A stretch of 25,912 nt of DNA from a virus. Positions within the stretch are counted from its first letter, which is position 1. Each line of letters starts with the position of its first letter. The notes under the pieces are model-generated. The model searched no databases. It was not told the origin of the DNA and saw only the letters and a program-made list of their open reading frames with translations. The position numbers and the translations under genes were made by a program. Shown in pieces: positions 4,484 to 25,912 of this stretch. The stretch covers positions 1 through 25,912 of IMG/VR virus record IMGVR_UViG_3300046450_002791, one strand, 5' to 3'.

Positions 4484-7400
4484 ATGGCAATCAATTTAGA
4501 TGTACATGGAAATACTACGCCCTTAGAGGCGTCGGTTAGAGCGGCGGTAGATAGAATCCGCAGGAAGCCCATAAAGATCACTGTCGACGATAAGGGCGCC
4601 ACCCAACCGTTGGGTAATATGAAGCGCTCCGCTGACGAATTTAGCAAATCAATGGAGGCTGCTAACGCTCGTATTATTGCCTTCGGGGCATCAATGGCAG
4701 TTCTTAACGGTATTGGCGACGCCTTCAAGGCCATGGTTAGGGATGTGGTTCAGGTGGAAAAAGCTCTGCAGGATATAAATGTTGTAATGGGGCTGTCTGC
4801 TCAGAATTTAGATAGGTTTTCATCTGGCTTATTTAAAGTAGCAAAAGAAACTGGGGCCGCTTTTAACGTTGCTGCTGAGGCTGCAACTGAATACGCTCGG
4901 CAAGGCTTGACCATGGAGGAGTCTCTCAAGAGAACGAGGGACGCTCTTATCCTTACCCGTATAACTGGTATGGATTCTGCCAATGCGGTAAAAGCTTTAA
5001 CCGCCGCAATGAATACGTACGGGCATCAAGTCGCTGACACTACAGAGTTGGTTAGTAAATTTGCCGCAGTTGACGTAAAGTTCGCAGTTAGCGCAGAGGA
5101 TTTCGCTGACGCTATTGCCAGAACTGGTGCCGCCGCAAAAGGAGCTGGAGTCGATATTAATCAGCTAATTGGTATAGTTACCGCGGCCCAGCAGAAAACC
5201 GCTCGAGGTGGTAAGGTTATAGGAAACTCTCTAAAAACTATTTTTACTAGAGTAGGCAAAACAAATACACTAGATACTCTTGAGAGTGTGGGTATTGCGG
5301 TCAGGGATCTGGAGGGCAAGACTATAAATGCTACAAAAATTCTTAGCGATCTTGCAAGTACTTTTGATAAGCTATCTGCTGCCCAGCAAGCTCAAGTTGC
5401 CCAAACTGTTGGTGGAGTATTTCAAATTAATATCTTAAAGGCTGTATTGGGTGACGCGGCGAAAGCGAACGGCATACAGGCTAGGGCGACACAGATAGCT
5501 TCTGGCGCAACAGATGACGCAATTAAGAAAAATGAAATGTTGCGTCAGACGATGGCTGCTTTAGCCTCTGAAACTGGCATGGCATTAAAGGAATTGAGCG
5601 CCAGGGTTGGGGACTTAATGCTCGCTCCAGGTATGGAGAAAATACTCAATATGGTTAAAGGCGTCGCTGAGGGCGTGGGAGATATTCTTGGGGATGGGCA
5701 GGACAGCGGCGATAGATTTGCCAAAGGATTCCTTTCTGGCATTGGGAATATAATTACTGGACCAGGCTTGGTCGTTACGGTGGCTGTGTTTGGTAAACTA
5801 TTTTTTAAGGCCTTTCAGTATATGAAGGACAGTATGAAGTCCCTCATTGGTATCACCTCGCAAAGTGAAAAGCAAAAGGCAATACAAATGTCTTTGGTTG
5901 ACTTATTTGGTCGAAACACGGAGCTGAATAAGGAAATGTTGAGGACTGATATCTCCCGCGTAGAAAAGGAAGGAATAATTCTTGAATTATTGCGTTCGCA
6001 AGTTAATGAAGCGAACGCGTTAAATGGAATCGCATCATCCTTATCTAAGACAATGTTTACCTCGGGTTATGGAGCTAACTTAACTAAGAAAGGGGGATCT
6101 GCTTCGGGATATATTCCAAATTTCGCAAAAGGCGGTTCAGAAAGAAACGAAGCTAGGAAAGGTGGATACGCTCCAGGCGCAGTCAAGACTATGAAAATGC
6201 CTGGCGCTGGGCAGGTAACCTACAATACCGCAGAGACGGTAAAAAGATTTCCGCAATTTTCACAACCCGCAATCATGCCGCCCGAAGGAAGTCGAGCGGG
6301 CAAAAATTATAAACAAGGGTTCGGATCGGTACATGGATTTAATCCATATGCTAGTCAAGGATATATACCAAACTTTTCAACCGCAACTTCGTCGGGGTCA
6401 ATGAAATCTGGGTTTGAGCTAGGAAAGGCTGGTCTCGCTGAGAAGAATGTAAAAAATGCCATTGATTTGTCCAGTATGTTTACAATGTTAACCTTAAAAC
6501 AAGGCGGCTCTGGTTCTGCCAGCATTATCCCTGACTCACAATACGGAATTAAGGGAGGCGCGGGTGGAGATTTACCAAAAATAACATTTGGGGTTAGGGG
6601 TTTAGATCGAAGTAAGGTAGAGGATATGGCTGGGAGCCATGACGCTTTTGACGTAATGAGAGAAAGATTAAAGGACGCTGTGGTTCCTAAGGGGGTTGAA
6701 TTTGGTAACAATATGCAATTGGGCAAAGCTGACAGAACTAACAATAAGTTAATGTCAAACGCTTTATCACAAGGCTCAAGCGGTGCACTAGGAGCTCTTT
6801 CTGGCTTAGTGGGGGCTGTGTTTGAGGCGGCAATTTCAACCAGATTACCTCATACTGATCCTGGTGGAGCCGTTGGTAGGTTGGCAAGTGTGGGCGGCGG
6901 GTCAGCAACGAAGGTCGGAGGAGATTTTGACGTAACAAATATAAGCTCTTCAAAAGAACTTCAGACGTTATTTGGGAGCGGTATTGCTGATATAGGTGAT
7001 TACAAAACCGCAAGCGGAAAACAGACCAATAAAAGCATGGCAAACAAAATTGCCAAGGAAATGATCTACAGGAAACATCCTGCTTTTGTCGGTAGCGGTT
7101 CGCAACAAGGTAAGGGTCTATACCATCAGAAAGATAAAAATAATCAATACAAAGTTGCTTATGGGAAAGATAAGGGAGCAACCTCAGGTCCGTTGTCAAA
7201 CATAAAAACCTTAAGAGATTCATTTGTTCCTAAAATTTCAAATCCAGACACAGACTATTACGACATCGATTCGGGCGAGTATGGCAAAGGAGGAGCCAGA
7301 GGTTTTATTCCTAATTACGCAGGCCCATTAAGCGATGCCATCGGCAGAGAGCGCGGCGCAGGCATACCAGTTTCGAAAATCAGAGTAGGAAGTCATTCCC

Positions 7401-10400
7401 GCCTTATGGGCAGAGGTAATCCTCTTGGATTAGGGGTAACAAATACTCGTGATGAGCCTAGGGGACTTAGGGATGTTGTCCCTAATTTCGCAGATCCCGA
7501 TCCCAACGACAGGGCCTCTATGATGGATAGGGTGCTAGACAAGCTTCATGGAGCTTTGGATAAGTGGGGCGTTAAGCTGAAGGAAACTCAGGAATCTTTG
7601 GTTGACGACTTTGTGGGATTGGAAAAGAACGCAGCGGCCGCGGCAGAATCAACAATGGGCGGAGCAGATGTGGCAAAGAAAATGAGGGAAGATAATAAAA
7701 AAGCCGCCGTCACCGAAATGAAAGTCCAGGGGGGGTGGAGCAAACATCAATCGGCAGAAGCGTTTAGGAAATTAGGATACACCCAGCAAGAGACCCAAGA
7801 AGCCTTGGAGCAACTTGGCCATTCTGAACAAATATCCTCGAATATCGCAGAAGCGGCTCATCAGGCGGGAGGAAACTCTCAGAGTGGAGGGCCAGGAGGT
7901 TTAATGTCTAGACTCTCTGGCAGGGCTCGCCAAAGCAGGGTCGGGGGAATGCTTCATGGGGCAGGAGAGAGGTTGACCTCTGGCACTACAGGCATGGCGC
8001 TCATGATGGGAGCTCCCATGTTGGCTGGAATGATCACAGAAGGAAACGAAACGAGTTCAGCCGCTCAAGCTACTGGTGGGGCAATGACTGGTATGGCAAC
8101 TGGAGCTAGTATGGGCATGATGTTTGGTCCCTGGGGTGCGGCAATTGGCGCCGCTGGCGGAGCCTTACATGGACTTGTCGGCGGCTTAAATGAGGCCGAA
8201 AAGGCAATGCGCTCAGCTGCACAAGCTACGTGGGCGGCATCCAAGGCGAAGGAAAAGGAGGTTAATGACGCGATGTTTGGAGCGGCCCAGCCCGAATTGA
8301 TCGATTCGAATAGGTTGTCAATTGGAGACATGAAAGCGACGCAAGATGCTCTAGGTTCCAAATTCACGGGAGACGTTTCGATACAGAAAACAAGCTGGGC
8401 GGATGCGTTTATGACCAATACTGCTAAAAACTACAACAAAAGCGAAGACGTTGCATTGAGCATCTTTAGATCGCTCATGGAAAGTAAAGACGACAAAGTG
8501 GAAAAAGCGATGAAGGATCTTGACCTTGCGGAAGGGCTAATCTGGGATGAAGTCGAGTTCGCATCATCTCGGGAGAGCAAAGGGGGCACTCAAGCTTCGG
8601 CGGAGCATCTCCGAAAGAAATGGCGAGCGAGCCCCTTACCGAGAGATAAACGGGGCAGTTTTCCGTCCTCACAATCAGGGGATTTCCACACTGACCCAGA
8701 GGATTGGTTGGTTGCCGCCTTGGAAAGGAAGTTATCTGAAGCTGGAATGGGTGATGTGGCAGGGAAGGCGAAGAAGCAGGGGGGTTTCTCGGAACTCGCG
8801 CCCGAACGCTTAAAGGAAATAAATGATATCATCTATGATCAAATATTCAGTGAGCTAAAAAGGATGGCGGACAATGGCGAAAAACCTAGGATGGCGTATG
8901 TGGCAGGCAAGGACAAAAGTATAGATCAAATCTTTAAGTCTGGCTTTTCCAAGTTCAGTCGAGAAGAACAAGCGCAAGCCGCAGGCAAGGACGCATACGA
9001 CAGCGCCCTGAGCTCCAAAGGAGGTACTATGGACGATGCCCGCAAGGCAAAGAAAAAAGCCTACGACGACACTTTCGAGAAACCAGATACTATGGGAGAT
9101 ATACTCACGGCCGTTTCGATGTCAGAGAAAGGGTGGGACAAAACTCAACAAGATTCTGCCACAAAGCTAATTAAGGCATACGTCTCAAATCTGAATGATG
9201 ACTGGGAGGAGACCATATCCCTGCCTGCAGACGATAAGGGGGTTAGCCAAACTGACACAGTGGACAAAGAAAAACTATTAAAACAAATAAATAAAAATGA
9301 GGAAGCGGGGATAACTATCGAACCTTTGGCGAGGCAACTTGCGGAAAAACATATCGCGTCAGTCAAAGGGTCAGACAAAGAATCTGAGGCAGCGATAAAG
9401 CAGCTAAATTTAAAGAAGATCCAGATAATGCTGCAGAAAAGGCGAAATGACTCAATAAGGGGCATTACCGAAAGTCATAAGTCATTCTCCCACGAACAAA
9501 CACTACGGAACGCCCAATTCGGGCGATCCATGACTGAGTTGGATAAAAGTTCAGTTAATTATAGGGTTGGCATGGACAAGGCGGCTAAAGATTTTGCAGC
9601 ATCTAATGTAGATGTTAGGGGTAAGACTAAAGAGCAAATAGTTGCCAAAATAACCACGAACAAAGCTCTAACGCAGGATTTTAAGTACGGAGCAGATGTA
9701 TTTAAGAACACCCAACATTTGAAAGGAATAGGCGCCGAGATAGGGAAAAAAAGGGTCAAAGGAGTAGATGAAGAAGTGGAGGTCTCATTGGCTAAAGAAA
9801 TAGCCAAACTTGATGATGCGGGTATTACGGAACTGCTGAAGGTATTTGACGACATGGAAAGTAGAGGTCATAGGATTAATGAAGAGTTCGCCGCGATATT
9901 GCAAAGCTTAGAAGATCAATTAGACACAAACGTAAAGAAGAAGGGCCAACAGGAAAAGGAGCTTGGAAGAACAAAGGTTCTAAAGGATCTCGAAGGAGAC
10001 AGGAAGGACATCCTTAATTCGATTGCCAATACTAGCAGGATTTCTGCTCTGAGGAGCGAAATTAATGCCTCCAAGGAGAGATTAAGTCTTGAGATGAAAA
10101 TCATGGAGATTAAGCTTAAGGGAGTAGGAGGTCTAACTACTCATGGGCAACTCTCCATAGGCGAACAAGTTATGGGGGCGAATTCCTCAGCGCAACAAAA
10201 GATTGCCCAAAAACAAATAGCGGATAAAATGATCTCCCTCTTAAGGGATCCCTCTAGCGGGTTCAAGCCTGAGGACTTAGAAGAAATAAATCCTCAGCTT
10301 AGGATGATGAAAGAGCGTACGGACACTACACCTCAACAAGTAAGGGACCTAATTAGCCCTGAGAAAATGCCTTGGGTCGGCCAGCCGAAGGTCGACATCC

Positions 10401-12616: not shown

Positions 12617-12617
12617 A

Positions 12618-13499
12618 ATGAGCTTTTCGAATTATGAGCAAACAGTTATTATCGATTCGGTCTCTTTATCTGGAGTAACCAACGTCAAGGGTAGCTATAG
12701 CATAAAAGAAAAGCCAATTAAAATTGCGGGGGTGGGTTTTATTGATGCATTAGTCGATGGGCCTGCGGAAGGGGATTTTACAATTTCAAGACAAATGGTT
12801 AGTAGGGACCCCATTATTAAATACGCCCAAGACGGAAGTTATTTATATGATCAAGATTATATAAGCGGAGCAATATTGTATGATAACAACACTAAAGGTT
12901 TTGGCTTCACCAAGGGTCGGATAACGAAATATTCCGTAAGCTGTCAAGTTGGCGAAATACCTACTATATCTACTGATATTCGCGTATTTGGAAATCTGGG
13001 GAGCGGTATTAACGTAGCTCTAGCAACAAAGGAACACCCAAAAATACAGTTTCCAGATCAAGAAAGCATTAGTATCGTTGTGGGTGATTTTTCAGCAGAC
13101 TCAATCACGGATTTCAGCTATACCAGATCTTTGGATATAAACCCTGTTTATGCAATTCCCAAGGGAACTTCTGTGGACTGGGTGGCGGGGACCTCTGCTA
13201 GTTTCGCAAATCAAGACCCCGTTCAGACTGACGTTCAGTACCCTATACAAACTGATATTACTTTTACAATGATCCCAAGCGAGTATGAGGTGAGGCAGAT
13301 GAAGGATAAATTTAAAAAAGCCTCTAAAACAGATGTTGTCATAGATATACTAGACTCAAGAAGTAATGAAAGTGTTGCTAGCTTTACTGGAAAAAACGTT
13401 AGACTAATTTCGGAGTCGGTCAACTCGACAATTGAAGGGGAGATGAGTATATCCTTATCCTATAAGGGTTATGAAACACTACATAATCCAGTATCATGA
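12618..13499 (+). CDS. tail tube-like or distal tail protein, 293 aa
   Basis: I chose ATG 12618, one base after the tape measure stop. A GTG at 12579 in the same frame would add 13 residues but overlap the tape measure. The protein starts MSFSNYEQTVIIDSVSLSG and is almost entirely beta-like, with no membrane span or signal peptide. It seems to consist of two halves of similar layout. The first runs from the N-terminal strands to FGFTKGRITKYSVSC. The second runs from FSYTRSLDINPVYAIP to a C-terminal series of strands ending MSISLSYKGYETL. Tail-tube and distal-tail subunits share this kind of fold, and tandem tube-like domains occur in some tail proteins. It lies between tape measure and gpM-like genes, where lambda has no gene. 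The stop overlaps the next start (ATGA). Identity is inferred from composition and position. Confidence 0.6.
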   Translation: MSFSNYEQTVIIDSVSLSGVTNVKGSYSIKEKPIKIAGVGFIDALVDGPAEGDFTISRQMVSRDPIIKYAQDGSYLYDQDYISGAILYDNNTKGFGFTKGRITKYSVSCQVGEIPTISTDIRVFGNLGSGINVALATKEHPKIQFPDQESISIVVGDFSADSITDFSYTRSLDINPVYAIPKGTSVDWVAGTSASFANQDPVQTDVQYPIQTDITFTMIPSEYEVRQMKDKFKKASKTDVVIDILDSRSNESVASFTGKNVRLISESVNSTIEGEMSISLSYKGYETLHNPVS

Positions 13500-14401
13500 A
13501 GCAACCTTTTCTAAGATTTGAGGATGGAAAGATCTCCTTGGGGGGGAAGGATCTACTTGTGAAGTCTGCTCAGTTGTCTGTGGAGCCGTCGTTAGAGCCT
13601 CAAAGGGTTTATGGGGAATATGACTCAAGTGTCGCTGGGGCGCGAACAGAATTCGTAGACTTTTCCCCACAAGGAGGGCTTCGCGGAAAGCTGGGCATTA
13701 CATTTGTTATTAATGGCGACTTTTTTAGCGCTAATAGTATTGATAGATTGTTTGATATTAGTGCGGGCATGAGTGAGGCTCCGATTAATGAAAATAAGGT
13801 GGGGAGGTATTTGTTTAACTATATGTATCTCAAGTCTTTGTCTTTTAGCATAACTCCGTTTAAGGTAATTGAGGCTAAAGCGGACTACGATATATATGGA
13901 ACGATTAAACAGGGGCCCGCCCAAAGGTTCTCGAAGACCTCGATTGATCCCGCTCATGGATTAAAGTCTTTTGGGGAAGTGAAGGCTGGTGGACAAAGAA
14001 TGGATTCTCATGCTGACGGACAATTTGAAGTTACGAATTTAAATTATAACATCTTAGTAGGTAGGAAGATACATCATCATATTAGAGACTCAGAAAACAC
14101 AACAATAAACACTAAGGCTGATGGAGTGGTTCCCCAAAGGGTTTCGGTGGAAAATATAGAAATCAGTATGACTGTGGAAGGAAATGAAATAGTGGAAAAT
14201 CTTAATCCCATGGGAAATGTGCAAGCAGGCACGACCACGGAAAAATTAGAGCAATCCTCTATATCTGCATACCTTTATAGCCTGCGAGGTAAACAGCTCG
14301 CAAGGTTTTCTTGCACGGGTAGGATCATGTCGCAGTCCCTGGTTGTCTCTGAGGGGCAATATTCCAAAGGTAAAATAAGCATCCAACAAATAGTAAAATA
14401 A
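13496..14401 (+). CDS. tail protein, beta-rich, 301 aa, possible distal-tail/tube-like paralogue
   Basis: The start ATG at 13496 overlaps the upstream stop by four bases, and its own stop shares one base with the next start (TAATG). The protein begins MKQPFLRFEDGKISLGGKDL. Two similar-looking halves again seem present. One contains YLKSLSFSITPFKVIEAKAD followed by YDIYG. The other contains VENIEISMTVEGNEIVENLN. A His-rich spot (KIHHHIRD) lies at about residue 190. There are no transmembrane segments. The series of alternating hydrophobic strands and the tight linkage to the preceding beta-rich gene suggest a related tail-tube/distal-tail structural role, perhaps forming rings between the tube and the tip. 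I do not recognise the family. A baseplate hub or chaperone role cannot be excluded. Confidence 0.58.
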   Translation: MKQPFLRFEDGKISLGGKDLLVKSAQLSVEPSLEPQRVYGEYDSSVAGARTEFVDFSPQGGLRGKLGITFVINGDFFSANSIDRLFDISAGMSEAPINENKVGRYLFNYMYLKSLSFSITPFKVIEAKADYDIYGTIKQGPAQRFSKTSIDPAHGLKSFGEVKAGGQRMDSHADGQFEVTNLNYNILVGRKIHHHIRDSENTTINTKADGVVPQRVSVENIEISMTVEGNEIVENLNPMGNVQAGTTTEKLEQSSISAYLYSLRGKQLARFSCTGRIMSQSLVVSEGQYSKGKISIQQIVK

Positions 14402-17400
14402 TGGCAAACCAGAGGCCCGCATATCTTACTAATATATCCAATTATTCTGGAGTATTTTCTACTGGAGTTAGTTATGAGAAGTTTGATTTTGTTTTCAATA
14501 CTGGAGACTATCGCTTCTATTATGCCAAGGAGGGTCTTGCCCTGGGGGGCGCAACTACTGCATCAGGAGTAAATAGATTTTCGTTTGAGGTTAACGGGCC
14601 TGCATCAAACGGCTCTTTGGGGCATTACTTCTTTGATAACAAAAATACTCTTGCAGAATCAGGGTTTAAGGTTGGGCAAAGGGTAAATATAGGAGGTTCG
14701 CTTAAGGATAATAATGGTTCGTATAGAATATTAGACCTGGAAAAAGATCTTGAACGCTCCATTGATGGAGGGGATATCATAACTGCCTTAGGGGCCGCTC
14801 GCCAACCCCTAATGAGCATTGCGCAAGGAAGCGAGCAATTGATAGAGCGGTCGAGTCATTCGGAGTGGGAGTCGGATTGGTTTTTTAACCCAAACTCAAT
14901 CGATATAGCGAGCCTCGAATGGTGGGAAAAATCAGCAAATTTTAAACTTTACGGCGGGCTGTTTAATTGGGGAGGTCCCGATTATGGGGGCTACGTTGAT
15001 CTATACGAAGACCTTGCGAAAGCTTATTCTGACTATACGTTAGGATTGCACGATGGGCAAGAACTCGTTCCCTATGGGGCTTATCCAGCAGCACCAAATA
15101 CCCTGTACGACAACTCTCTTGCTAAGAGTGAGTGGGGGAACGTTCATTATTGGAAATACGGACACACGACCAGCGAGAATCGAAAACTCCCCTCCTTGAG
15201 CCAGTGGATAGTTAATGGAAGCCTCGGAATGCTATATATTTCCCCAGATGACAGCGAAGGGCGTAAAGAGGCATGGTTTTATAAAGACACATTGGGGTGG
15301 AACTGGACCAGTACTGGCGTTATTGAAACTGGATTTGTTTGGCTTGGAGACTCAACGGATAGCACCATAGGTCCAACTGGCTGGACTTACTGGACATCTA
15401 CTCCGCACGAAAAGCATGCCAAATCCGCGTCCTTACAAGACCTTTATGTTTATAACTATAGCTCACAAGACTGGTATCTATTTGAAAAAGAGGACGGGAA
15501 TGATCCTGGAGGCGGTAAAAAGGACTCTCCAGAAACTTGGGCGAGCGACCTTTTGCCTCCTGAGCCCACATGGATAACTCATCCATTCGATATTCCTTCA
15601 AAGAATAAGTTTACAAGGCTATGGGTTCAAGGAATTTCTCCGTCCACTAAATTCAACCATAACGAATCAGCTGGCAACAATAATGTATCTATAACTCCCC
15701 TGAATGTAAAACCATCAGAGAATCTGGATTCTTGGTCTAAGGATTTGTTTTTCTTTGACGCGGACTACGGATCCTCTGTCAAGTTTAAAACAAATAACCA
15801 GCGATATTCCTACGGAAATGGATATTATATAATACAGCCGAGGAATGTTAATACCATCGGGGCAGAGTTTGATCTAAAGTTTAAAAATAGAACTAATCGA
15901 GAGGCGAACGCAATTGTTCATTTTCTAGAGAATCACCAAGGGCAACATGAGTTAGATTCTTCGTCTTCAAAGTTAAAATACACAAAGGGTATTTCTGGTT
16001 TTAGGTGGGGCGGCGATTCTACTTTTCACCCCTACGACTCTATAGAAAATCAATCTAGAAACTTCTACTGCTCTAAATTTGATCATACATTGACTTTTGA
16101 GAATAGTAATGATCTAAGCGTTAAATTAAGAAATCTTGACGCCTCTATACTTGATAAGTCTAATGGTATGTTTGTTAAAGCGGCTCCAGATTACATAGAT
16201 GGACACCCTTACGAAAAGAATGATGTGGTATTATATACTGGGAATCACCAGTTTTATTACTGCAATCCAGAGCCAGAGCCTGTGGTTGAGGATACATGCG
16301 GCTTAACAACTAATCCATGGCCAGGAATCTATGATGTAACGTCTGATGTTGATCAAGTCCCCGCCACGATTACTATGACTTATAGTTTTATACAATCGGG
16401 CACGAGGGTTTTTGACTCGAAAGAACCCCTATTCAGTGCGCTGTCAGGGGCTTATGCGACAACCCTGCAATACCCGTCAACAGGCGACAGTGCTGGAACT
16501 CAGGTCTCTCACGCCTCGTTTACTGGAGAAATTGGGGAAGCTCTTTCGGAATGGAAGATCGCATTCGAACATCTTTATCCTTGGTTAACTTTAAATTTTA
16601 AAAATTTAAAAGAAGAGTTGGGGCAACATGGGGCTTCTGCAACCTATGAAGGAGGAATGCCTAGCGACGGTTATGAAGGAAACTATAACCTCCCTCATGC
16701 TGATAATATTGGAGATCTTCGATTCGGAATGCATCATATAGATATAGAGGGTGGAGCAAGAGACTCCTTAGCCCACGCCTATTATCCTGGCGGAAGAATA
16801 GGGTCTATAGGTAATGTTGGCGGAGATGTTCATTTTGATTCGACAAACGCGTGGGGCACGGAACTTGATTGCGACCCTTCAGAGGTAAGCATTAAGTATA
16901 TCGCAACGCATGAGCTTGGTCATGTTTTTGGGCTTACTCACAACTCTAACCTGGCTTCTATAGTGCATGCTTCCGCAACTCTTGGGCAAACTTATTCTGA
17001 AAAGTTTCCTAATGGAATAACTGAGTTGGATTTTAAATGTTTAGAAAAAATGTATGGACCTAGGGCAACCATCGTTAAGACAAAACCCCCAGTCGTTCAA
17101 ACCCCAAAGTGGACTGAGGCATCTGGTTACTATAAAGATTCAAACGCTGATCTCTGGACGAGAGATTTTTATTGGAAACCTTCTCTCGGCTTAACCGTTG
17201 AGCAAGGGCCTAGGCTGTCAGAACTTAACTTGGGAGGGGGGTACACTCAACTCCATAAGGACGGAATAAACGAAAGTCTCTTGACTCTCAATCTAAACTT
17301 TAACGGTAGGGACGACAACGAAACTAAAGCAATGCTGCATTTTCTTGAAAATCATTATGGAGCTATCCCGTTTAATTTTTCTCCGCCAGCTCCGTACGAA

Positions 17401-19539
17401 ACTCCTCAGAATTTTATTTGTGAAGAGTGGTCGCATACATACGACTACAAAAATAGCCACTCAATTAGTGCGAGATTCGAGCAGTTTCCTTTTAACTTTA
17501 CTGCAGAGCAGTACTCTAATTTGGTTCCAGAGCTTGATCCTTTTTCCGCAGAGGCTAGAGCTCACGATCCCCCCTCCAGCGCAGAGCTGCTGAAGTCTGG
17601 AAATTTAGAAGCCTTAAATGCGACTGACCTGGGAAATGGTTGGTATCAATCCTCATGGCTTTGGAAGGGTTTGCCAGATTCAAAGAGCGAGGGCTTCTTT
17701 CATCTATCTGATAGTAATCCTGGATGGATCTATCTTGCTAATTCCTGGGAATGGTGGTGGCTCACTACGGGGGGGTACACTGCAGAGGGTTCGACTGGAG
17801 TGTGGATGTTTAAATCAGCTTATTCACAAAATAATACTCCTATAACTGGGCTAGATTGGCAGTGGTCATATTCTGGTATAATGGGTACTGGCGTGGCAGA
17901 TGCATGGACCTTCTCTCCATTAAGGGGTAATGCAACTCAGAAATGGACGTCTGAGATTGGAACGGGTTGGTTTTATTGGAGACCTCCAGATATTAATAAG
18001 AGGGGGAAATGGGACTCTGTCGGAAATCGTTATGTATCTGGGGCCGACGCTAGGGTATGGGGAGCAGAGTCAGGTTTATGGTACGATGTAGAACTAGATG
18101 GGTTATCTGAGGAATTTTCTAACGACGGCGGTGGTGATCCAGTAGGTTATGCTGATCTGGAGGAAGCGCTCATTAGCCTCTTACTCGGCGAACAAGGGGA
18201 TATGAACGACGAAGGCTTCGATCCATTCAAAAAATTAAAAGAAACATATCCCACAGAAGAAGAGAACGGAGAATTCGATCCTCCCGTACAGGAGGAAACA
18301 GGCGCTGATGAAACCCCATTGGTTTCGGAACAACCAGAAGTAAGTGAAACCCCGCCGACACTTCCAGTTGGCGGCAGCTTGATTTTCGCTGATCCGATAA
18401 TTTTTTCAGGGCCAGAGCAAGAGCAAAAATGGATAGCTCCAGGCCAGAAGGGGAAGTATAGAGTGAGTCTTGAAAATGTTGGGGAAGCGGATGTTGATTT
18501 GAGTCGAGCGCGTGTAGTCGGGAGGTCTGAAGGAATTAATTTCGCCCTCCTTGGGCAAACCTCCTATGGGGGGGATAACTTTAAGGGGTATATACCTGGT
18601 CATTCTCCCGAAAAGGAATTAACCGAGGGGGCTCTTAACGCAGAATGGGGAAACGTGCCAGCGGTCAATAGGAGCGCGGTGGAGGATAGCGACAACTTTA
18701 GCTCTATGGAAGACTTCTTTAATGCCAATAGGGTTGACATTCCAGACAAAGGGCTTCCCTTTGATCTAGGTCTTGCGTCCAAGGGAACCACTAAGGCTAT
18801 ACTTTTTACTCAGAAAAGCTATAATGCACCTGCCGCTGACGGGGGCGCCTTTTTTAAGCTTCAAACAGGGCATACTAATGCGGATCTCAGTTTTGAGTAT
18901 AGGGATAGAATGGTAAAAGTCTATGATCCTTACGCTGTTGACGAGTTGGGTAATTTAGTCGTCGGGGCAGGTACTGACTATCCGTTGGGGCTATGTAAGG
19001 ATGCGTATTATCAACGAAACGATGCATCTATCCTTTCTGGATTTAAAGACCCCACGATTACTGCATACAACAAGAATCCGCAGCTTAATAAAGTTGGGGA
19101 CTGGGGAGGTCTTAAGGGGGGTAAGTGGATGATGCCAGGCAACGGGGTCTCGCATTATATTGAAAGCGGATACTTTGTTAAAAATCTCACCAATGTATTA
19201 AAGCCTGGGGAAAAGGCTTTCATGGATATAGTTTTTAGTGGAATCCCCTCTGATAAATATTCAACCAACTCTACGGGCCCAGTAGATTTCCTTGCCTCTG
19301 GATGGTTTGGGGATGATCACTTGCCGATTGTTCCTCATCCAGTCAATGGAGATGTCAGTTACCAGGACTCTAGTTATAGAATAGAGTTTGGCGACGACAA
19401 TGACGCAACCTATGATGGGAACATAGTTTTTGAAAATCCAAGAACTTATTATTATGGAGATCTAACCGTATCTAGCACGGACGCACACAGCCCACAAACT
19501 TCTGAAATAAGGGTTTTCGTGTGGGATCAATCGGAGTAA
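14401..19539 (+). CDS. composite tail-tip protein, 1712 aa: duplicated gpM-like domains with inserted matrixin metalloprotease
   Basis: This gene takes the place of lambda gpM (109 aa), just before the gpL equivalent. Visible modules in order: YEKxDxVxxTGxxxFYY motif (25-41); NSLAKSEWGNVHYWKYG segment (about 238-254); Trp-rich repeats (about 275-336); gpM-like domain 1 (about 445-581, with YGNGYYI, FLENHQG and FYC); second YEK motif (604-620); matrixin-like zinc protease (about 640-890, HELGHVFGLTH at 837-847); gpM-like domain 2 (about 917-1035, with FYW, GGGYTQL, FLENHYG, FICEEW and ARFEQF); Trp-rich repeats (about 1080-1200); acidic/Pro-rich linker (about 1280-1330); and a beta-rich C-terminus (about 1335-1712) with Ig-like patterns (YRVSLENVGEADVDL). 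No signal peptide is visible, as expected for virion assembly in the cytoplasm. I infer a tail-tip scaffold displaying a protease and surface-binding modules. Confidence 0.85.
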   Translation: MANQRPAYLTNISNYSGVFSTGVSYEKFDFVFNTGDYRFYYAKEGLALGGATTASGVNRFSFEVNGPASNGSLGHYFFDNKNTLAESGFKVGQRVNIGGSLKDNNGSYRILDLEKDLERSIDGGDIITALGAARQPLMSIAQGSEQLIERSSHSEWESDWFFNPNSIDIASLEWWEKSANFKLYGGLFNWGGPDYGGYVDLYEDLAKAYSDYTLGLHDGQELVPYGAYPAAPNTLYDNSLAKSEWGNVHYWKYGHTTSENRKLPSLSQWIVNGSLGMLYISPDDSEGRKEAWFYKDTLGWNWTSTGVIETGFVWLGDSTDSTIGPTGWTYWTSTPHEKHAKSASLQDLYVYNYSSQDWYLFEKEDGNDPGGGKKDSPETWASDLLPPEPTWITHPFDIPSKNKFTRLWVQGISPSTKFNHNESAGNNNVSITPLNVKPSENLDSWSKDLFFFDADYGSSVKFKTNNQRYSYGNGYYIIQPRNVNTIGAEFDLKFKNRTNREANAIVHFLENHQGQHELDSSSSKLKYTKGISGFRWGGDSTFHPYDSIENQSRNFYCSKFDHTLTFENSNDLSVKLRNLDASILDKSNGMFVKAAPDYIDGHPYEKNDVVLYTGNHQFYYCNPEPEPVVEDTCGLTTNPWPGIYDVTSDVDQVPATITMTYSFIQSGTRVFDSKEPLFSALSGAYATTLQYPSTGDSAGTQVSHASFTGEIGEALSEWKIAFEHLYPWLTLNFKNLKEELGQHGASATYEGGMPSDGYEGNYNLPHADNIGDLRFGMHHIDIEGGARDSLAHAYYPGGRIGSIGNVGGDVHFDSTNAWGTELDCDPSEVSIKYIATHELGHVFGLTHNSNLASIVHASATLGQTYSEKFPNGITELDFKCLEKMYGPRATIVKTKPPVVQTPKWTEASGYYKDSNADLWTRDFYWKPSLGLTVEQGPRLSELNLGGGYTQLHKDGINESLLTLNLNFNGRDDNETKAMLHFLENHYGAIPFNFSPPAPYETPQNFICEEWSHTYDYKNSHSISARFEQFPFNFTAEQYSNLVPELDPFSAEARAHDPPSSAELLKSGNLEALNATDLGNGWYQSSWLWKGLPDSKSEGFFHLSDSNPGWIYLANSWEWWWLTTGGYTAEGSTGVWMFKSAYSQNNTPITGLDWQWSYSGIMGTGVADAWTFSPLRGNATQKWTSEIGTGWFYWRPPDINKRGKWDSVGNRYVSGADARVWGAESGLWYDVELDGLSEEFSNDGGGDPVGYADLEEALISLLLGEQGDMNDEGFDPFKKLKETYPTEEENGEFDPPVQEETGADETPLVSEQPEVSETPPTLPVGGSLIFADPIIFSGPEQEQKWIAPGQKGKYRVSLENVGEADVDLSRARVVGRSEGINFALLGQTSYGGDNFKGYIPGHSPEKELTEGALNAEWGNVPAVNRSAVEDSDNFSSMEDFFNANRVDIPDKGLPFDLGLASKGTTKAILFTQKSYNAPAADGGAFFKLQTGHTNADLSFEYRDRMVKVYDPYAVDELGNLVVGAGTDYPLGLCKDAYYQRNDASILSGFKDPTITAYNKNPQLNKVGDWGGLKGGKWMMPGNGVSHYIESGYFVKNLTNVLKPGEKAFMDIVFSGIPSDKYSTNSTGPVDFLASGWFGDDHLPIVPHPVNGDVSYQDSSYRIEFGDDNDATYDGNIVFENPRTYYYGDLTVSSTDAHSPQTSEIRVFVWDQSE
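14473..14523 (+). repeat. YEKxDxVxxTGxxxFYY motif, copy 1
   Basis: Residues 25-41 of the 1712-aa protein read YEKFDFVFNTGDYRFYY. The spacing is identical to copy 2 (residues 604-620). The pattern of Y-x-x-x-D-x-V followed by a YY pair recalls short chitin/cellulose-binding modules (carbohydrate-binding module 5/12 type), but the match is only at motif level. Confidence 0.6.
15733..16143 (+). other. gpM-like domain 1 in the 1712-aa tail-tip protein
   Basis: Residues about 445-581 follow the lambda gpM order: opening aromatic strand (DLFFFDADYG), YGNGYYI in place of FGDGYxQ, FLENHQG in place of FLEEHGG, and an aromatic-Cys (FYC, C557) before a final beta segment. An insertion of about 30 residues lies between FLENHQG and FRWGG. 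It is more divergent than domain 2. Confidence 0.55.
16210..16260 (+). repeat. YEKxDxVxxTGxxxFYY motif, copy 2
   Basis: Residues 604-620 read YEKNDVVLYTGNHQFYY and are followed directly by C621. It sits between gpM-like domain 1 and the protease domain, about 580 residues after copy 1, with no insertion or deletion between the two aligned 17-residue motifs. Confidence 0.6.
16318..17070 (+). other. matrixin-like (M10) zinc metalloprotease domain in a tail protein
   Basis: Residues about 640-890 carry the catalytic zinc motif HELGHVFGLTH (H837, E838, H841, H847). Upstream are the usual matrixin structural-zinc ligands in the usual order: H779 and D781 (HHID), H792 (LAHAYYP) and H811 (GDVHFD). 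The canonical GDxxxG-like strand (GDLRFGMHH) precedes them. Trp818 follows GDVHFD as in matrixins. The Met-turn methionine seems replaced by Val855 (SIVH). A Cys-Gly pair at C633-G634 just before the domain could be a remnant of a cysteine-switch, but this is speculative. Two independent metal sites make chance very unlikely. Confidence 0.85.
17149..17505 (+). other. gpM-like domain 2 in the 1712-aa tail-tip protein
   Basis: Residues about 917-1035 match the length and motif order of lambda gpM well: FYWKPS opening, GGGYTQL (lambda GDGYSQR), a G-I-N after it, FLENHYGAIPF followed by PP (lambda FLEEHGG...PP), FICEEW (lambda C-A-K-W) and a closing ARFEQF (lambda AEFEQV). This is the better conserved copy and the best evidence that the gene occupies the gpM place. 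Confidence 0.75.
17638..18000 (+). repeat. tryptophan-rich repeat block in the tail-tip protein
   Basis: Residues about 1080-1200 contain more than a dozen Trp in GW/WxW contexts, for example GWYQSSWLW, GWIYLANSWEWWW, GVWMF, LDWQWSY and GTGWFYW. A shorter block of the same kind (LGMLYIS, EAWFYKDTLGWNWTS, GFVWLGD, GWTYWTS) is at 15223-15408. The pattern GW-hydrophobic-Y followed by WxW/WFY and LGWxW is one I associate with surface proteins of marine bacteria. Confidence 0.6.
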
Positions 19540-19543
19540 AAAT

Positions 19544-20650
19544 ATGAGCCACTCAACAAAAACCTTCAATCAACAGTTATTGTCTATCGCTCCAGATGTT
19601 ATTATAGATTTGTATGAAATTGACTTTAGTAATCTTCAGGCTAATTTTGATGCAGTCAAAGACTTAGAGGGAATCAACTTTGGCGCCGAGCCTGCTTATA
19701 GATTTTGCCCAATGATCCACGGAACAAATCCAATAATATGGCAAGGCAAATCCTACCAGCCCCTTCCGATAAAAATGGAGAACTTTGAGCATCAGGCTGA
19801 CGGAAGATTGCCTCGCCCCAAGTTGACCATAGCAAACCCAGAAGGATTATTGTCTATAGTGACTCACTCCAATCATGATTTTGCAAATTGCATGGTTACG
19901 AGGAGGAGGACTTTTGCTAGATTTCTGGATGACGAAAACTTTCAAAATAGAGGGCTTAACAGGGAGGGTAAAAATCCATTTGGCGCAGCGGATAGAGCGT
20001 CTCATTTTCCCGATGATGTTTATTTTGTAAACAGGAAAACCGCAGAAAATAAGGAGTCTCTTGAGTTCGAGTTGGTTTCCGCATTAGAACTAGAGGACGC
20101 TCAGGTTCCAGCGAGAATAGTTTTGTCTGGCTATTGTCCTTTTAAGTATAGGTGTTCGGTTGGATGCGGATATAGTGGATATCCTATAGAGAATTCTGAC
20201 GGAAAGAATTTTAAGGACCATTTTCTGGCAGACGTTTTGCTTCTGGAAGACATGAGTCCTTTGGAGAGCCACCTCCTCGCCACCGCCGCCCAGGACGCAT
20301 TGGGCCTCGCCAAAAAAAGCGTCGACCCAAGATTTCCAGAATGGAGCCCATTTGGCCCCAAAGGCTCCGAAGGCAATATAAGACCATACGAGGTGGGGAA
20401 GATGGTTCAAGTGAATCCAACCCACGAAACGGACCCTGCGCCATTGGTTTTTATGTGTATTAAATGGCACTCTACTCCAGGCAAGCATAATCCTTTGCAT
20501 GATCGAGAGCATTGGGGGTTGGATGAATGCAACAAAGATGTAAGCGCTTGTAAGAAGCGGTTTGGTAAAGTAAACTCGTGGAACCAGTCTGATGAAAAGG
20601 GATTAAGATTCGGAGGATTCCCATCTACTGAGAGATATTCTTTTGAATAA
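19544..20650 (+). CDS. minor tail protein L-like (Fe-S tail-tip protein), 368 aa
   Basis: The start ATG lies four bases after the upstream stop, with GGAG overlapping the end of that gene. The first two thirds are beta-rich, as in the gpL family (GKSYQPLPIKMENFEHQADG, then RPKLTIANPEG). The C-terminal third holds the cysteines expected for the Fe-S cluster known in lambda gpL: C198, C204 and C208 (GYCPFKYRCSVGCGY), then C329 and C336 (LDECNKDVSACKKRFG). Spacing of the last pair is seven, as in lambda. The protein ends FGGFPSTERYSFE, and FGGFP after the last Cys pair is typical of the family. About 120 residues separate the two Cys groups, far more than in lambda. It should join the tail tip between the gpM- and gpJ-like proteins. 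Confidence 0.88.
   Translation: MSHSTKTFNQQLLSIAPDVIIDLYEIDFSNLQANFDAVKDLEGINFGAEPAYRFCPMIHGTNPIIWQGKSYQPLPIKMENFEHQADGRLPRPKLTIANPEGLLSIVTHSNHDFANCMVTRRRTFARFLDDENFQNRGLNREGKNPFGAADRASHFPDDVYFVNRKTAENKESLEFELVSALELEDAQVPARIVLSGYCPFKYRCSVGCGYSGYPIENSDGKNFKDHFLADVLLLEDMSPLESHLLATAAQDALGLAKKSVDPRFPEWSPFGPKGSEGNIRPYEVGKMVQVNPTHETDPAPLVFMCIKWHSTPGKHNPLHDREHWGLDECNKDVSACKKRFGKVNSWNQSDEKGLRFGGFPSTERYSFE
20630..20634 (+). promoter_or_regulatory. ribosome binding site supporting the TTG start at 20643
   Basis: GAGAG lies eight bases before the TTG at 20643, inside the end of the gpL-like gene. The next in-frame ATG (residue 50) would remove the catalytic Glu20, so the TTG start with this weak site is preferred. 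Confidence 0.45.
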
Positions 20651-20984
20651 ACGAATTCTGCAGGATATTAAGGAGTACGCAAGACTCTACCCAGGTCAAG
20701 AAACCTGTGGTCTGGTGGTTCGCGAAGGAGAAGGGTTGTCGTTTGTTCGTTGTGATAACGAGCATCCACGTCCAGAGTCCGCTTTCCTTATGTCTGCTCA
20801 AAAGTTTTTATCCTACGAGAATGTTGAATATATTTATCACTCTCACCCCAATTCCTCGTCCGCTCCTTCGGATCTAGATAGAGATTATTCCGACGAATTA
20901 ATGATGCCATTTTTAATTTATAGCTTGCCTGATGATAATTTCACTTTATATAAAAATAAAAGTGTATATTCTGATTGGGTATAA
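20643..20984 (+). CDS. stand-alone JAB/JAMM metalloprotease (N-terminal half of lambda gpK), 113 aa
   Basis: The JAMM zinc motif is complete: E20 (GQETCGLVV), then H66-S-H68-P, then seven residues to S76 and D79 (HSHPNSSSAPSDLD). Phage tail JAMM proteins of the Mov34/JAB group form the N-terminal half of lambda gpK, normally followed by an NlpC/P60 peptidoglycan hydrolase domain for a total of about 200-250 aa. Here the gene stops right after the JAB fold (ending VYSDWV), so the hydrolase half is absent. The start is a TTG that overlaps the gpL-like stop by eight bases, and the gpI-gpJ fusion follows after six bases. Likely a tail-tip assembly peptidase; whether it cleaves a tail protein or a host target cannot be read from the sequence. 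Confidence 0.88.
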   Translation: MNKRILQDIKEYARLYPGQETCGLVVREGEGLSFVRCDNEHPRPESAFLMSAQKFLSYENVEYIYHSHPNSSSAPSDLDRDYSDELMMPFLIYSLPDDNFTLYKNKSVYSDWV

Positions 20985-20990
20985 GGTAAA

Positions 20991-23900
20991 ATGAAAACGA
21001 TCCATCTTCACGGGGAACTAGGAGAACGCTTTGGTAAAAAGTGGAACTTTGCTATTGACACTCCGAACGAAGCGTTTAGTGCAATACATGCAAATACAAG
21101 CGGGTTTATTGAATATCTAAATAAGCAGGCGAGAAAGGATATTCAATATGTTGTCCTAACTAAAAACCCAGAGAAGCTTAAAACAGAAAAAGATTTCTTG
21201 AAAAACGCTATTACTTCCGATGGTTTAGGAATGCGCACTTCGAAGAAAGAGTTTCATATTATTCCTCTGATTCAGGGAGGGGGACCCGTAGTCGGAGCGT
21301 TTATTGTTGAAGTTCTTGTATATACCGCAGTTGCTATCGTTGTCGGCCTTATCGTGCAGGGCATTATGAAAATGCTATTTAAGCCTCCAGAGAAAAAGGA
21401 TCCCGTAACGAGCAAGTCTTACTTGTTTTCTGGACCCCAAAACGTAGAAGCTCAAGGGATTCCAGTGCCCCTAGGTTACGGAAGGTTAAGAATCGGCTCT
21501 GTTGTCGTAGGGGCAAAAAAAAGCTCCCGCAGAGATAAGAATAGGAACACTTCTACAACCAGCCAGAACGAGGCGGCGAGGATGCTCCTAGAGTCCATCT
21601 CCGAATTTGAGTATTCGGAGTTGCTATGCGAGGGTCCAATTGAGGGATTTGTAAATATGAATGGGGGTCCAATATCTTCTCCAGAGGCCGTTACAGAGGG
21701 GATATTCTTTAATGAGGTTCCAGTTAAGAATACTCCAAAATACGGAGCTGGAATGGGCGACCCTAATTTCCTTAGGCCAGGAGGGGGAAGGGACGAATAC
21801 GGAACTCTAAATTTCATCATGAACGAAGGAGTGGAGAGGGAAGATGGCTCCATGAAGATGAAGATGCCTCAAGTAAGGTTGGGACATGCTAAAGAGTGGG
21901 ATAGCTCCTTCTTTGGAGAGGAGGCGGCCGAAGCTTGGGTTGGCACCTCATCGACGTCTAATTATCAGACTATCTTATATGGCGGAGCGCCTTATAGAAA
22001 GTCGTCGGAGAGGCTTTTTGCCAGTGCGGACTCTACGGTAAACAGCACGGGAAATGAAAAAGGCGATCTCACAACTTTAAGGCTTAGTTTTGAGGAATCT
22101 ATAGCTGGAGGAGCGAAGCTTTGGAGCCACAGCGTAATAAATAGTGATGTTGATCATATCAAAATTAGCTTGCGCTCCATGCTGAGTCGCCAAAAGGACA
22201 ACGGTGAGGTTGCACCCAATCATATTATGTTTGGCATTCGGGTAAGGATAGGAGATAGGTATTATAACCCCTTGGAGCAGAGCCACTTCCCTCTGAGCTC
22301 TTATTTTGTTAATGCCAGTAAGGTTCGCAACGATAAGGGTGACTTGTGGAATATTATACCTAATCAAACGAGAATTCATGGTGGTGTTACCTTAGTGAAA
22401 GAAGGTCAAAAGATTCGATTTTTCTCCAATCACATTGGGCTTCCGCCGCCACGAGACGGAGAACCCCGTCGGATGCTTCCGACAACAAATGAAGGCGTTC
22501 TGCTTGAGGATAAGGAATATTTCGTGCGAAATGTCGAACGCGGCGAAGATATGAAGATTCAAGGTTACGGAACTACGGGAACGTCTACTTTTGAAATATC
22601 TGAAACGATAGATGGTGCCGTTCTTACTTTTACCAAAAAGGGTGCGTGGACCAGTAAGTCCGTAGAAGCGTCCGAAAGGATCGGTGTCGCATCATATTGG
22701 GGGTTTGTGGAACCCTCTTGGAATCTTAGCTACAAAGGCACGCAAGAAATGAGGGATGGAAAAGGAGGCCTCAACCAGGTTGTTGGAAATATCCCTGATA
22801 ATGCTTTTTTTCAACTAACGGGTTGTTGCACTTCAGAGTATGAATTTGACATAGAGTTTAATATTCCAAAGGTAGATGCTTCTGGATATAAAATACCTAC
22901 GCTGGGCGAGGCTTCACAGATACAGATTTGCAAGTTCTCTTCGGAATTGGATCCAAGCGTAAAGTTTACTCCTGCAAGCATTAGCAACACAGATGAGTTT
23001 GTTCTTCCAAAAAATTACAGTAACTTAAACAACCCCGAGCCGATAACAGTTCAAAGAGTTCATACTGGGACTTCTCAAAACTGGAGGGTTCTTGTGCTGT
23101 TGGAAGCCTGGGAAAAAAGGCAAGGCTCTCCCTTTCCCATTCCGAGGCACTGGTGGACAACTGAAAAACAGGTAAGCGAGGGTATAGGCGGAGTCAACCA
23201 GATAAAAAATCTAACCATTTCCTCCATAACTGAATCCGTGCAAGAGAAGTTCTTGTATCCTCACAGCGCTATGATTAAATTGTTTTTTGATAGCAAGAAT
23301 TTCTCGCAAATCCCAACGAGGTCTTATCATTTAAAATTAAAAAAGGTGCTGGTCCCTTCTAATTATGACCCAGTTTCGAGAGTGTATGATGGGCCATGGG
23401 ACGGGCTGTTTCGTGGGCAGAGCACCTCATCCGCTTCCATTCATAGTGTTGATGATAGGGATTTAGCGTGGACAGATAACCCAGCTTGGATATTTTATGA
23501 TTTGGTGACTAACACTAGGTATGGATTGGGCAAGTTTGGGGTGGGTGAGGCTAATGTGGATAAGTGGCAGTTATATAAAATTGCAAAATATTGTGACGAA
23601 TTAGTTGAGACTGGCTATCCCTATGAATCCCAAAGAAGAGGTTGCCTTATTAGCAATACCTTAGGTTTTCTTAAAATAAACACCTCGGACAACGGGGGCG
23701 TTGTCGGCTCAGACTGGGAGAATCATTATCCCACTGAGGGCAAATCCGCAATGATTGATTACGGCGCGAGGAATAAAATGCTGCGGAGGGAAGCTTTGAA
23801 ATCTGGAGGGTCGGATGAGGTGTTCGCAGTTGCAGTGGAAAACCTTACTGCGGAAGAGTTTGAATTTGAGTTTGGGGATAAGTTTAGCTTTAAGGGGAAG

Positions 23901-25912
23901 AGGGTCGCCTTTTTCATAAATGAAAATAGCTCCGACGACGTGAGTGCATCTTCTGCTCAATTATTCGCGTGGACTGATGAGGGAAATAATCCAATAGGTT
24001 CTGTTGAGGAAAGGGCTATTTTCTGGAGCAGTAAACAGGATAGAACGATTTACTTGAAAGGTCCAACTTTTGCGAATCACCCCCTGGCGAAGGAGTATAT
24101 TGATGCAACCTTGAATGATTTTGATACATATGTTGACTACAGCGGAAACACAGACCTCTTGGCGGCATTTAATTCATATGCTGCAGGAACCCAAGAGGGG
24201 CAGGGGGGTGTGGCATCTGCGGCATATGGAGTTTGGAGTAAAGACTTACCTAAAGAGGGGTGGGGTTTTGCCCATTGGGAAAATCACGGCCAATTCGAAA
24301 CTACACGCCACATGCCAAAGAAGGACGTTCGAATCCGCGGCTCGTTTATAGTTGGATCGAATGCAAAATGCATTACTCAAAATAACTACAACTTAGTTGA
24401 ACCAAGGTTTTCTGCGAACATGTATATAACCGACAGGATGCAGGCCGTAAAGATACTGAATCACCTGGCCTCTATATTTAGGGGTATAGTCGCTTATTCA
24501 GGAGGGAAAGTTCTTGCGATTCAGGACGCCTTAAAGGAGCCGATTCAACTATTTAATAATTCTAATGTTTCTCCAGACGGATTTTCCTATATGGGGACTG
24601 TGAAAAATAAAAGATTCACAGCTGTTTTGGTTCGATATAATGATAAGGATAATAACTTTAAGCCCGCCGTCGCGTATATGGAGGACGCTGATGCAATAAA
24701 TAAATTTGGATATATAGAAAATGACACAATCGGCTTTGGGGTAACTTCTCCCAGTCAAGCTCAAAGGCTAGCCAAATGGATTCTTCACACCTCCCAACTG
24801 GAAACTGAAACCGTAACTTTTGTCACAGGGCAAGAAGCTGGTTATCTTTTTCCTGGATCAATTATAGAAATTTCAGATGAATCTAGGGCTGGGTCGTGGA
24901 GAAGCGGTCGTCTCTTGGGGGTGTACCCAACAACAGAAACTAGCGACTCCAACGGAGAATCCATAACAGTCAATTCTTCTTATTTTGCTATAGATAAGAC
25001 TCCTTCTGCTCCGACAACCGATAGGGTGGAGATTACCGTTCCTGCTGGTAGGGCGAACACTGCTCTACATAATCTAGACTCGAGAGCCGCTTCTGAAGGC
25101 AGCGCAGAAGATCAAGACTCTGAAATAGCAAATGTCCACGCCGCTCAGATGTTTAAATTTGACGGAATAATCTCCTCCTCTTCGAGTCAGCATACTACAA
25201 AGGGGCCTCGGGGACAGGATTCTATAATAAGAGACTTGAAGCTCAAGACGATAATCCGAGTTAAGTCTGAGGAAAACAAAATTACCTCCCCCTCTCACGG
25301 CTTAAAAATGGGGGATCGGGTAAGCTTTGTTTCTGAAGGAATTTTGCCCAAACCTTTAAGCAAATACAAGAGGGGGAGCACTGCCTATTGGGTGGTGGGC
25401 GCCACGAAGCACACTTTCCAAGTTGGCTTGGAAAATCCTTTTCTACCTCCCGCGAAAAGCGCCGTGTATATGTCATTTTTTCCAGAATATAAATCACTTC
25501 ATACTGCAGAAAATCAGTGGGGATTACCCCTAACGTTCTCAGACCTAGGAAGGGACGAATTCAATAACGAAGGTGGGTATCACTATTGGTGTCCAGAAGA
25601 TCCTAAAAAAACTAGGGATGCAGTCTCTCAGGTGATGATCGGATCTCCTTGGGCTATTAAGGGTAGGGTTGGAGTGTCGGAAGATTCTCCGCTTGTCCTC
25701 GCTGGAGGAACCTTAGATAAGCTTTTCGGAATTTTTGATGTTGTAGGAGGGGTTGATGCGGGATATGGTTGGTACGAGTCTACCTGGCTTGGGTATTTTC
25801 AGATCACTGGTGTCGAAGGGTGGGTTTATACAACCTCCATAGGTTGGATATATTCCAAGGAAATTTATAATAGAGACCCAGGTAGCGACGATATATGGTT
25901 TTGGAGCACCTC
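20991..25912 (+). CDS. fused gpI-gpJ host-specificity (central fibre) protein, partial, at least 1640 aa
   Basis: I followed the frame from ATG 20991 to the right edge and found no stop, so the gene is cut. Residues 1-175 are gpI-like: TIHLHGELGERFGKKW at the start, a hydrophobic segment at about 102-125 (VVGAFIVEVLVYTAVAIVV), and SYLFSGPQNVEAQGIPVPLG from 143. A short Lys/Arg/Ser/Thr linker (about 177-198) leads into gpJ-like sequence, beginning ELLCEGPIEGFVN. Further gpJ hallmarks are FLYPHSAMIKLFFDS, WTDNPAWIFYDLVTN (W827) followed by RYGLG, and EPRFSANMYITDRMQAV at about 1137. Such proteins form the tail-tip hub and the central fibre that recognises the receptor. The visible C-terminal part (from about 1592) turns into Trp-rich repeats (GWVYTTSIGWIYS, DIWFWS). 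In lambda I and J are separate genes; here they are one. Confidence 0.9.
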   Translation, partial: MKTIHLHGELGERFGKKWNFAIDTPNEAFSAIHANTSGFIEYLNKQARKDIQYVVLTKNPEKLKTEKDFLKNAITSDGLGMRTSKKEFHIIPLIQGGGPVVGAFIVEVLVYTAVAIVVGLIVQGIMKMLFKPPEKKDPVTSKSYLFSGPQNVEAQGIPVPLGYGRLRIGSVVVGAKKSSRRDKNRNTSTTSQNEAARMLLESISEFEYSELLCEGPIEGFVNMNGGPISSPEAVTEGIFFNEVPVKNTPKYGAGMGDPNFLRPGGGRDEYGTLNFIMNEGVEREDGSMKMKMPQVRLGHAKEWDSSFFGEEAAEAWVGTSSTSNYQTILYGGAPYRKSSERLFASADSTVNSTGNEKGDLTTLRLSFEESIAGGAKLWSHSVINSDVDHIKISLRSMLSRQKDNGEVAPNHIMFGIRVRIGDRYYNPLEQSHFPLSSYFVNASKVRNDKGDLWNIIPNQTRIHGGVTLVKEGQKIRFFSNHIGLPPPRDGEPRRMLPTTNEGVLLEDKEYFVRNVERGEDMKIQGYGTTGTSTFEISETIDGAVLTFTKKGAWTSKSVEASERIGVASYWGFVEPSWNLSYKGTQEMRDGKGGLNQVVGNIPDNAFFQLTGCCTSEYEFDIEFNIPKVDASGYKIPTLGEASQIQICKFSSELDPSVKFTPASISNTDEFVLPKNYSNLNNPEPITVQRVHTGTSQNWRVLVLLEAWEKRQGSPFPIPRHWWTTEKQVSEGIGGVNQIKNLTISSITESVQEKFLYPHSAMIKLFFDSKNFSQIPTRSYHLKLKKVLVPSNYDPVSRVYDGPWDGLFRGQSTSSASIHSVDDRDLAWTDNPAWIFYDLVTNTRYGLGKFGVGEANVDKWQLYKIAKYCDELVETGYPYESQRRGCLISNTLGFLKINTSDNGGVVGSDWENHYPTEGKSAMIDYGARNKMLRREALKSGGSDEVFAVAVENLTAEEFEFEFGDKFSFKGKRVAFFINENSSDDVSASSAQLFAWTDEGNNPIGSVEERAIFWSSKQDRTIYLKGPTFANHPLAKEYIDATLNDFDTYVDYSGNTDLLAAFNSYAAGTQEGQGGVASAAYGVWSKDLPKEGWGFAHWENHGQFETTRHMPKKDVRIRGSFIVGSNAKCITQNNYNLVEPRFSANMYITDRMQAVKILNHLASIFRGIVAYSGGKVLAIQDALKEPIQLFNNSNVSPDGFSYMGTVKNKRFTAVLVRYNDKDNNFKPAVAYMEDADAINKFGYIENDTIGFGVTSPSQAQRLAKWILHTSQLETETVTFVTGQEAGYLFPGSIIEISDESRAGSWRSGRLLGVYPTTETSDSNGESITVNSSYFAIDKTPSAPTTDRVEITVPAGRANTALHNLDSRAASEGSAEDQDSEIANVHAAQMFKFDGIISSSSSQHTTKGPRGQDSIIRDLKLKTIIRVKSEENKITSPSHGLKMGDRVSFVSEGILPKPLSKYKRGSTAYWVVGATKHTFQVGLENPFLPPAKSAVYMSFFPEYKSLHTAENQWGLPLTFSDLGRDEFNNEGGYHYWCPEDPKKTRDAVSQVMIGSPWAIKGRVGVSEDSPLVLAGGTLDKLFGIFDVVGGVDAGYGWYESTWLGYFQITGVEGWVYTTSIGWIYSKEIYNRDPGSDDIWFWST
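25764..25912 (+). repeat. tryptophan-rich repeat at the visible end of the gpJ-like protein
   Basis: Residues about 1592-1640 read GYGWYESTWLGYF, then GWVYTTSIGWIYS, then SDDIWFWSTS and run off the window. The motif type matches the Trp-rich blocks in the 1712-aa tail-tip protein (LGMLYIS...AWFYKDTLGWNW). It continues beyond the edge, so the number of repeats is unknown. Confidence 0.6.

Follow-up and report, generated by a model that had tools for sequence, protein, structure and literature searches.

A matrixin-type metallopeptidase domain inserted between two gpM-like domains of a phage tail-tip protein

Known virion-borne phage enzymes that open host barriers act mainly on sugars and peptidoglycan. 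The presence of the motif HELGHVFGLTH, a zinc site of the matrixin (matrix metalloproteinase, MMP) type, in a gene located among the tail genes of an uncultured tailed phage raises the question of whether a protease of this family has been built into a phage tail, and of what such an enzyme would cut. The sequence analyzed here (the window) is the 25,912-nt IMG/VR virus record IMGVR_UViG_3300046450_002791, positions 1-25,912. An initial annotation of this DNA had proposed a matrixin domain at positions 16318-17070, within a tail-tip protein occupying the place of phage lambda gpM.

The tail genes of the window are arranged in the order tape measure, two tube-like genes, gpM, gpL, JAB/gpK and gpJ (Table 1). 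When the 1712-aa product of the reading frame at 14401-19539 was compared with profile libraries, it matched Pfam PF05939, Phage_min_tail (E 2.8e-26), Peptidase_M10 (E 3.9e-13), and the minor tail protein family phrog_14. This reading frame lies between the tape measure gene and gpL-gpK-gpJ, which is the place of gpM, and its product is, judged by sequence, a homologue of lambda gpM; gene order and the Pfam and PHROG profiles both bear out the proposed placement. The two tube-like genes returned no match in family searches with Pfam and PHROG profiles. The gpJ-type fibre protein is complete in a twin contig, where it is 1972 aa long. An assembly chimera is unlikely, because the gpM-matrixin gene is intact in the twin contig, which differs at 1 of 15,995 bases, and the downstream part is also spanned by a third contig. 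Past the region covered by the window, gpJ is followed in the twin contig (L165) by a 2994-aa fibre-like reading frame and glycosyltransferase-like genes (6222-15206, 16616-19746), which lie on the other strand. Trp/Tyr-rich segments (GWIY/GWLY, WFW) are common to the gpM-like (14401-19539) and gpJ-like (20991-25910) proteins, and are found likewise in the gpM of two related contigs (L144 and L180).

Two tandem gpM-like domains are present in the one chain, and the matrixin-type domain lies between them. The first scored 28 bits, below the Pfam cut-off of 39 bits for Phage_min_tail, and its region is 51-61% identical to the gpM homologues of related phages. In the second, the Phage_min_tail match spans aa 923-1028. 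Six copies of lambda gpM, in two conformers, form a 3-fold ring above gpL/gpJ that links the tube to the hub (PMC10721106). With two such domains in each chain, three chains of the present protein might be sufficient to form a comparable ring.

Table 1. Features of the tail region of the window, with the evidence for each
Feature	Position	Strand	Evidence
Tape measure protein, 2710 aa	4484..12616	+	phrog_4211 E 2.8e-56
Two tube-like genes, 306 and 301 aa	12579..14401	+	Position; L180 homologues
gpM-like tail-tip (distal tail) protein, 1712 aa	14401..19539	+	Pfam, phrog_14, synteny
First gpM-like domain and following YYC-type segment, aa 409-620	15625..16260	+	Phage_min_tail E 3.1e-6, 28 bits
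Matrixin-type metallopeptidase domain, inserted, aa ~625-889	16273..17067	+	Peptidase_M10, AlphaFold2 model, absence in relatives
H778/H779 and D781, candidate structural-zinc ligands	16732..16743	+	Sequence; homologue alignment
H792 (LAHAYYPG), candidate structural-zinc ligand	16774..16776	+	Sequence, alignment
D809, H811, F812 (GGDVHFD), calcium/structural-zinc segment of matrixins	16825..16836	+	PDB match, sequence, alignment
HELGHVFGLTH catalytic zinc motif, residues 837-847, general base E838	16909..16941	+	Sequence; invariant in seven viral homologues
V855, place of the Met-turn methionine	16963..16965	+	Alignment
Second gpM-like domain, aa 895-1045	17083..17535	+	Phage_min_tail 73.8 bits
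gpL homologue	19544..20650	+	Phage_tail_L E 5.3e-42
gpK homologue, JAB part only	20643..20984	+	Prok-JAB E 9.7e-10
gpI/gpJ-type central fibre protein, runs past window end	20991..25910	+	phrog_31 'central tail fiber J' E 1.5e-109, phrog_32 E 5e-31

To evaluate the identity of the inserted domain, sequence profiles and a predicted structure were compared with known families. Pfam Peptidase_M10 (PF00413) matched with 50-54.5 bits, the higher score being obtained with the isolated domain, against a curated cut-off of 24 bits, and the best PDB sequence match (phmmer) was MT1-MMP/MMP-14 (E 7e-10). An AlphaFold2 model of aa 621-895, built on an alignment of 14 viral sequences, reached a pTM of 0.79 and a mean pLDDT of 72, with weak loops. 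In a Foldseek search of the PDB with this model, all 50 matches listed were MMPs or karilysin, and pairwise alignment with VIA-align gave Z 16.2 for karilysin (161/167 residues, 2.7 Å) and Z 15.6 for MT1-MMP (168/174 residues, 27% identity), with Z about 15-16 over 149-168 residues for karilysin and the MMPs overall. Since these alignments span nearly the whole karilysin and MMP catalytic domains, the domain is, by its predicted fold, a complete metzincin catalytic domain. The initial annotation had named absence of this fold as grounds for rejecting its proposal, and the model speaks against such absence. The catalytic motif is present as first reported, and is the single occurrence of HExxHxxGxxH in all six frames of the window; a motif of this form arose in 2 of 20,000 shuffles of the 1712-aa protein. 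Chance occurrence is ruled out by the shuffles together with the Peptidase_M10 score, the PDB match and the fold.

The domain architecture was compared with that of relatives. A search based on gpL recovered 41 loci, twin contigs among them. The gpM proteins of relatives retain both gpM-like domains (49-62% identity, a range that also applies to the second domain by itself). In 11 aligned relatives, with overall identities of 51-58%, a linker of ∼10 residues takes the place of the ∼264 aa found at the same point in the window, and no matrixin domain was found in any of the ∼34 relative loci that span this junction, many of which are near-identical. Judged from these alignments, the insertion is a clean one, between the two gpM-like domains and not inside one. 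The inserted part comprises residues ∼625-889, which corrects the limits given in the initial annotation. Profile matches, predicted fold, synteny and the clean insertion together give strong support to the proposal that a matrixin-type domain is built into the tail-tip protein. Because relatives have no such domain at the junction, it appears from sequence comparison to be accessory, and dispensable for assembly in those phages. Base composition gave no signal of recent foreign origin, as GC3 of the matrixin domain (0.347) is equal to that of the neighboring gpM domain (0.349).

The gpK homologue of the window (20643-20984) is without the NlpC/P60 half, as are those of relatives where the gene was found. 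Loss of this half was considered as a reason for the insertion and rejected, because matrixin-free relatives also have a short JAB-type gpK reading frame (118-148 aa, mechanically called). Other gpM homologues are enlarged in different ways. Those of ∼1500 aa in L150, L156 and L164 have an insert of ∼600 aa ahead of the first gpM domain, whose repeats resemble those of a beta-propeller. In a related phage (L180:3000-8804, L161:1-1173), the gpM homologue of 1935+ aa has the motif HELIHLLGVGNLW, and later ADHISE and EIM, in its C-terminal region, and on this motif the region is a putative second metallopeptidase on the gpM scaffold. It matched no Pfam family, its match to an NCBIfam metalloprotease was weak (E 0.0076), and its predicted model (pLDDT 31) was unusable.

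Alignment-based scans of IMG/VR revealed the homologous domain in six further viral contigs. The nearest relative, L178 (46% identical), is in an 834-aa, fibre-like protein with a collagen-like N-terminus that matches tail-fibre families. In this protein (L178:7464-9968), collagen-like repeats, the matrixin domain and a linker rich in Thr are followed by a C-terminal part that resembles C39-like cysteine peptidases, at a Pfam E of only 1. The others are L169 (34% identical; 1045 aa, encoded together with gpL in a lambda-like tail region), L174 (33%; 1805+ aa, adjoining a tail-fibre-like gene), L187 (31%; 610 aa), L171 (30%; 721 aa, in a 527-kb virus) and L176 (27%; 1917 aa, adjoining genes for a collagen-like fibre and a baseplate wedge). 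The domain gene is near or within tail genes in four of the six, and the scaffolds are large, mostly tail-associated proteins, unrelated to gpM; profile searches with the L171 and L187 scaffolds gave no virion protein assignment. No relative of the domain was detected by tblastn among 50,697 records of cultured phages. Weak 'Matrixin' matches in a record of Acinetobacter phage MD-2021a (L183, CAKLQH020000026.1) were set aside, as they lie among chromosomal genes; with dnaK, grpE, purK and two 'Matrixin' genes, this is probably a bacterial contig. In two narrow, pattern-based scans of bacterial genomes, neither the domain nor gpL had a confirmed relative, which is weak evidence of absence.

We consider the best explanation of this arrangement to be that the domain is a virion-displayed protease that opens a proteinaceous layer on the host surface, and we regard this as probable. 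The gpM-like domains would join the tail-tip ring, with the protease carried in the loop that connects them and faces outward; when the phage meets its host, the protease would cleave a surface protein (an S-layer, adhesin, pilus or protein matrix), and this cleavage would allow gpJ to reach its receptor. Alternatively, the domain might be a maturation protease, acting on the tail protein that carries it or on a different one, in the course of assembly or at ejection. Processing of large virion proteins occurs in some cases, the domain is embedded in a very long tail protein, and the adjoining long tail proteins could be substrates. However, the related phages with the same tail genes and no matrixin domain share an assembly path that evidently does not need it, and homologous domains are carried on unrelated scaffolds, so that we find self-processing an unlikely role. 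Given that close relatives share these tail genes but are without the domain, and that related domains are found in different large proteins of unrelated phages, the sequence comparisons suggest that cleavage of an external protein of the host is a better fit than a role in tail maturation. The invariant catalytic residues and the putative metallopeptidase on the gpM of a related phage (L180/L161) also count in favor of a virion-displayed protease; the Val at the Met-turn, and the L171 and L187 scaffolds with no virion assignment by profile, count against it.

Across seven viral homologues, the three zinc-binding His, the catalytic Glu and the Gly of HExxHxxGxxH are invariant, while the remainder is 25-46% identical. 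The other features of the site are more variable. H779, D781, H792 and H811, named initially as structural-zinc ligands, are exactly at those positions and in the right order, and the H779-x-D781 pair fits, but the spacing claimed for them is correct only in part, because two of the three gaps differ from those in MMPs (11 residues for D781-H792 and 19 for H792-H811, vs. 13 and 13). The first ligand is also ambiguous, as L178 and L171 keep the His at 778 and not that at 779, making either H778 or H779 the candidate. The structural-zinc set is near complete in the window and in L178, and eroded in L169, L174 and L176. The initial annotation missed the loss of the Met-turn methionine, which is Val in the window (V855) and in L187, Leu in L169, and Met in L178, L171, L174 and L176. 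Since this methionine is replaced, we describe the domain as a diverged, matrixin-type domain and do not file it as a standard M10A member. The cysteine-switch sequence PRCGxPD was not found in the protein; this prodomain is a feature of MMPs that bacterial matrixins do not generally have. C633, which precedes the domain, was ruled out as a cysteine switch, as it is not conserved in the homologues.

The replaced Met-turn residues and the structural-zinc ligands lost in three homologues raise the possibility that this matrixin has little or no catalytic activity and has been retained for binding proteins, as an adhesion module. The invariance of the catalytic residues among such divergent homologues would be unexpected if catalysis were dispensable, and metzincins mutated at the Met-turn show lower stability or some loss of activity but are not generally dead; we judge an adhesion module to be improbable, to about the same degree as a maturation protease. 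A protease that protects or frees the virion by cutting proteins of cell debris, vesicles or grazers, and not a barrier on the target cell, is equally compatible with the anatomy, but nothing specific favors it and the tail-tip place suggests action at contact, making it the most doubtful of the alternatives.

The domain and its setting share features with several known systems. Like the M10A matrixins (human MMP-14 and MMP-8, and karilysin of Tannerella forsythia), the phage domain scores above the Pfam cut-off, and has HExxHxxGxxH, a near-full catalytic fold and a GGDxHFDxxxxW segment. It differs from them in being internal to a tail protein, without signal peptide, cysteine-switch prodomain or hemopexin domain, and in the Val at the Met-turn, longer loops and altered structural-zinc spacing. 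Insect-virus matrix metalloproteases (from granuloviruses, ascoviruses and entomopoxviruses) were among the best matches of the domain in a viral structure library; these have the same fold, but are free-standing enzymes of animal viruses. The enlargement of a gpM-place tail-tip protein by an inserted accessory domain is shared with lambda gpM and the evolved Dit of lactococcal siphophages (PMC10721106, PMC10688798), although here there are two tandem gpM-like domains and the insert is of protease type, not a carbohydrate-binding module. In evolved Dit, the inserted carbohydrate-binding modules aid adsorption to exopolysaccharide-covered cells, which provides a tested precedent for inserts at this position that promote adsorption across a surface layer (PMC10688798), and the domain in the window would, by analogy, be the proteolytic counterpart of these inserts. 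Virion-associated depolymerases and peptidoglycan hydrolases are likewise tail-borne enzyme domains that open a surface barrier, but their substrates are polysaccharide or peptidoglycan, and the main text of a review of virion enzymes contains none of the terms 'protease', 'proteolytic' or 'metallo' (PMC6116005). A Listeria metzincin/TIMP-like pair of phage origin is similar in being a phage-linked metzincin that acts on the bacterial surface, but that metzincin is made and secreted by the bacterium as an enzyme in its own right, and does not belong to a virion (PMC8235301). A full-text literature search, with most subscription journals outside its scope, found no paper on peptidase M10 in a phage tail protein. 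Each component, tail-tip platform and protease fold, is known by itself; the combination is new as far as the literature searched shows.

The recurrence of the domain in different large proteins of unrelated phages is consistent with the idea of a mobile virion matrixin, in which a phage-borne family of MMP-type domains would be grafted onto large proteins of the virion, those of tail tip and fibre included. Such domains would make up a general class of tail enzymes that cut protein barriers, to be set alongside the depolymerases and peptidoglycan hydrolases. We hold this broader idea tentatively, as having somewhat less than an even chance. The domain would be a compact MMP-like enzyme that is directly testable, and its insertion, set against the domain-free relatives, represents a natural experiment. 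If a protease-type domain does sit in the tail-tip ring, phages would attack protein layers too, and this would provide a handle on phage passage through S-layers and protein matrices, a route so far undescribed.
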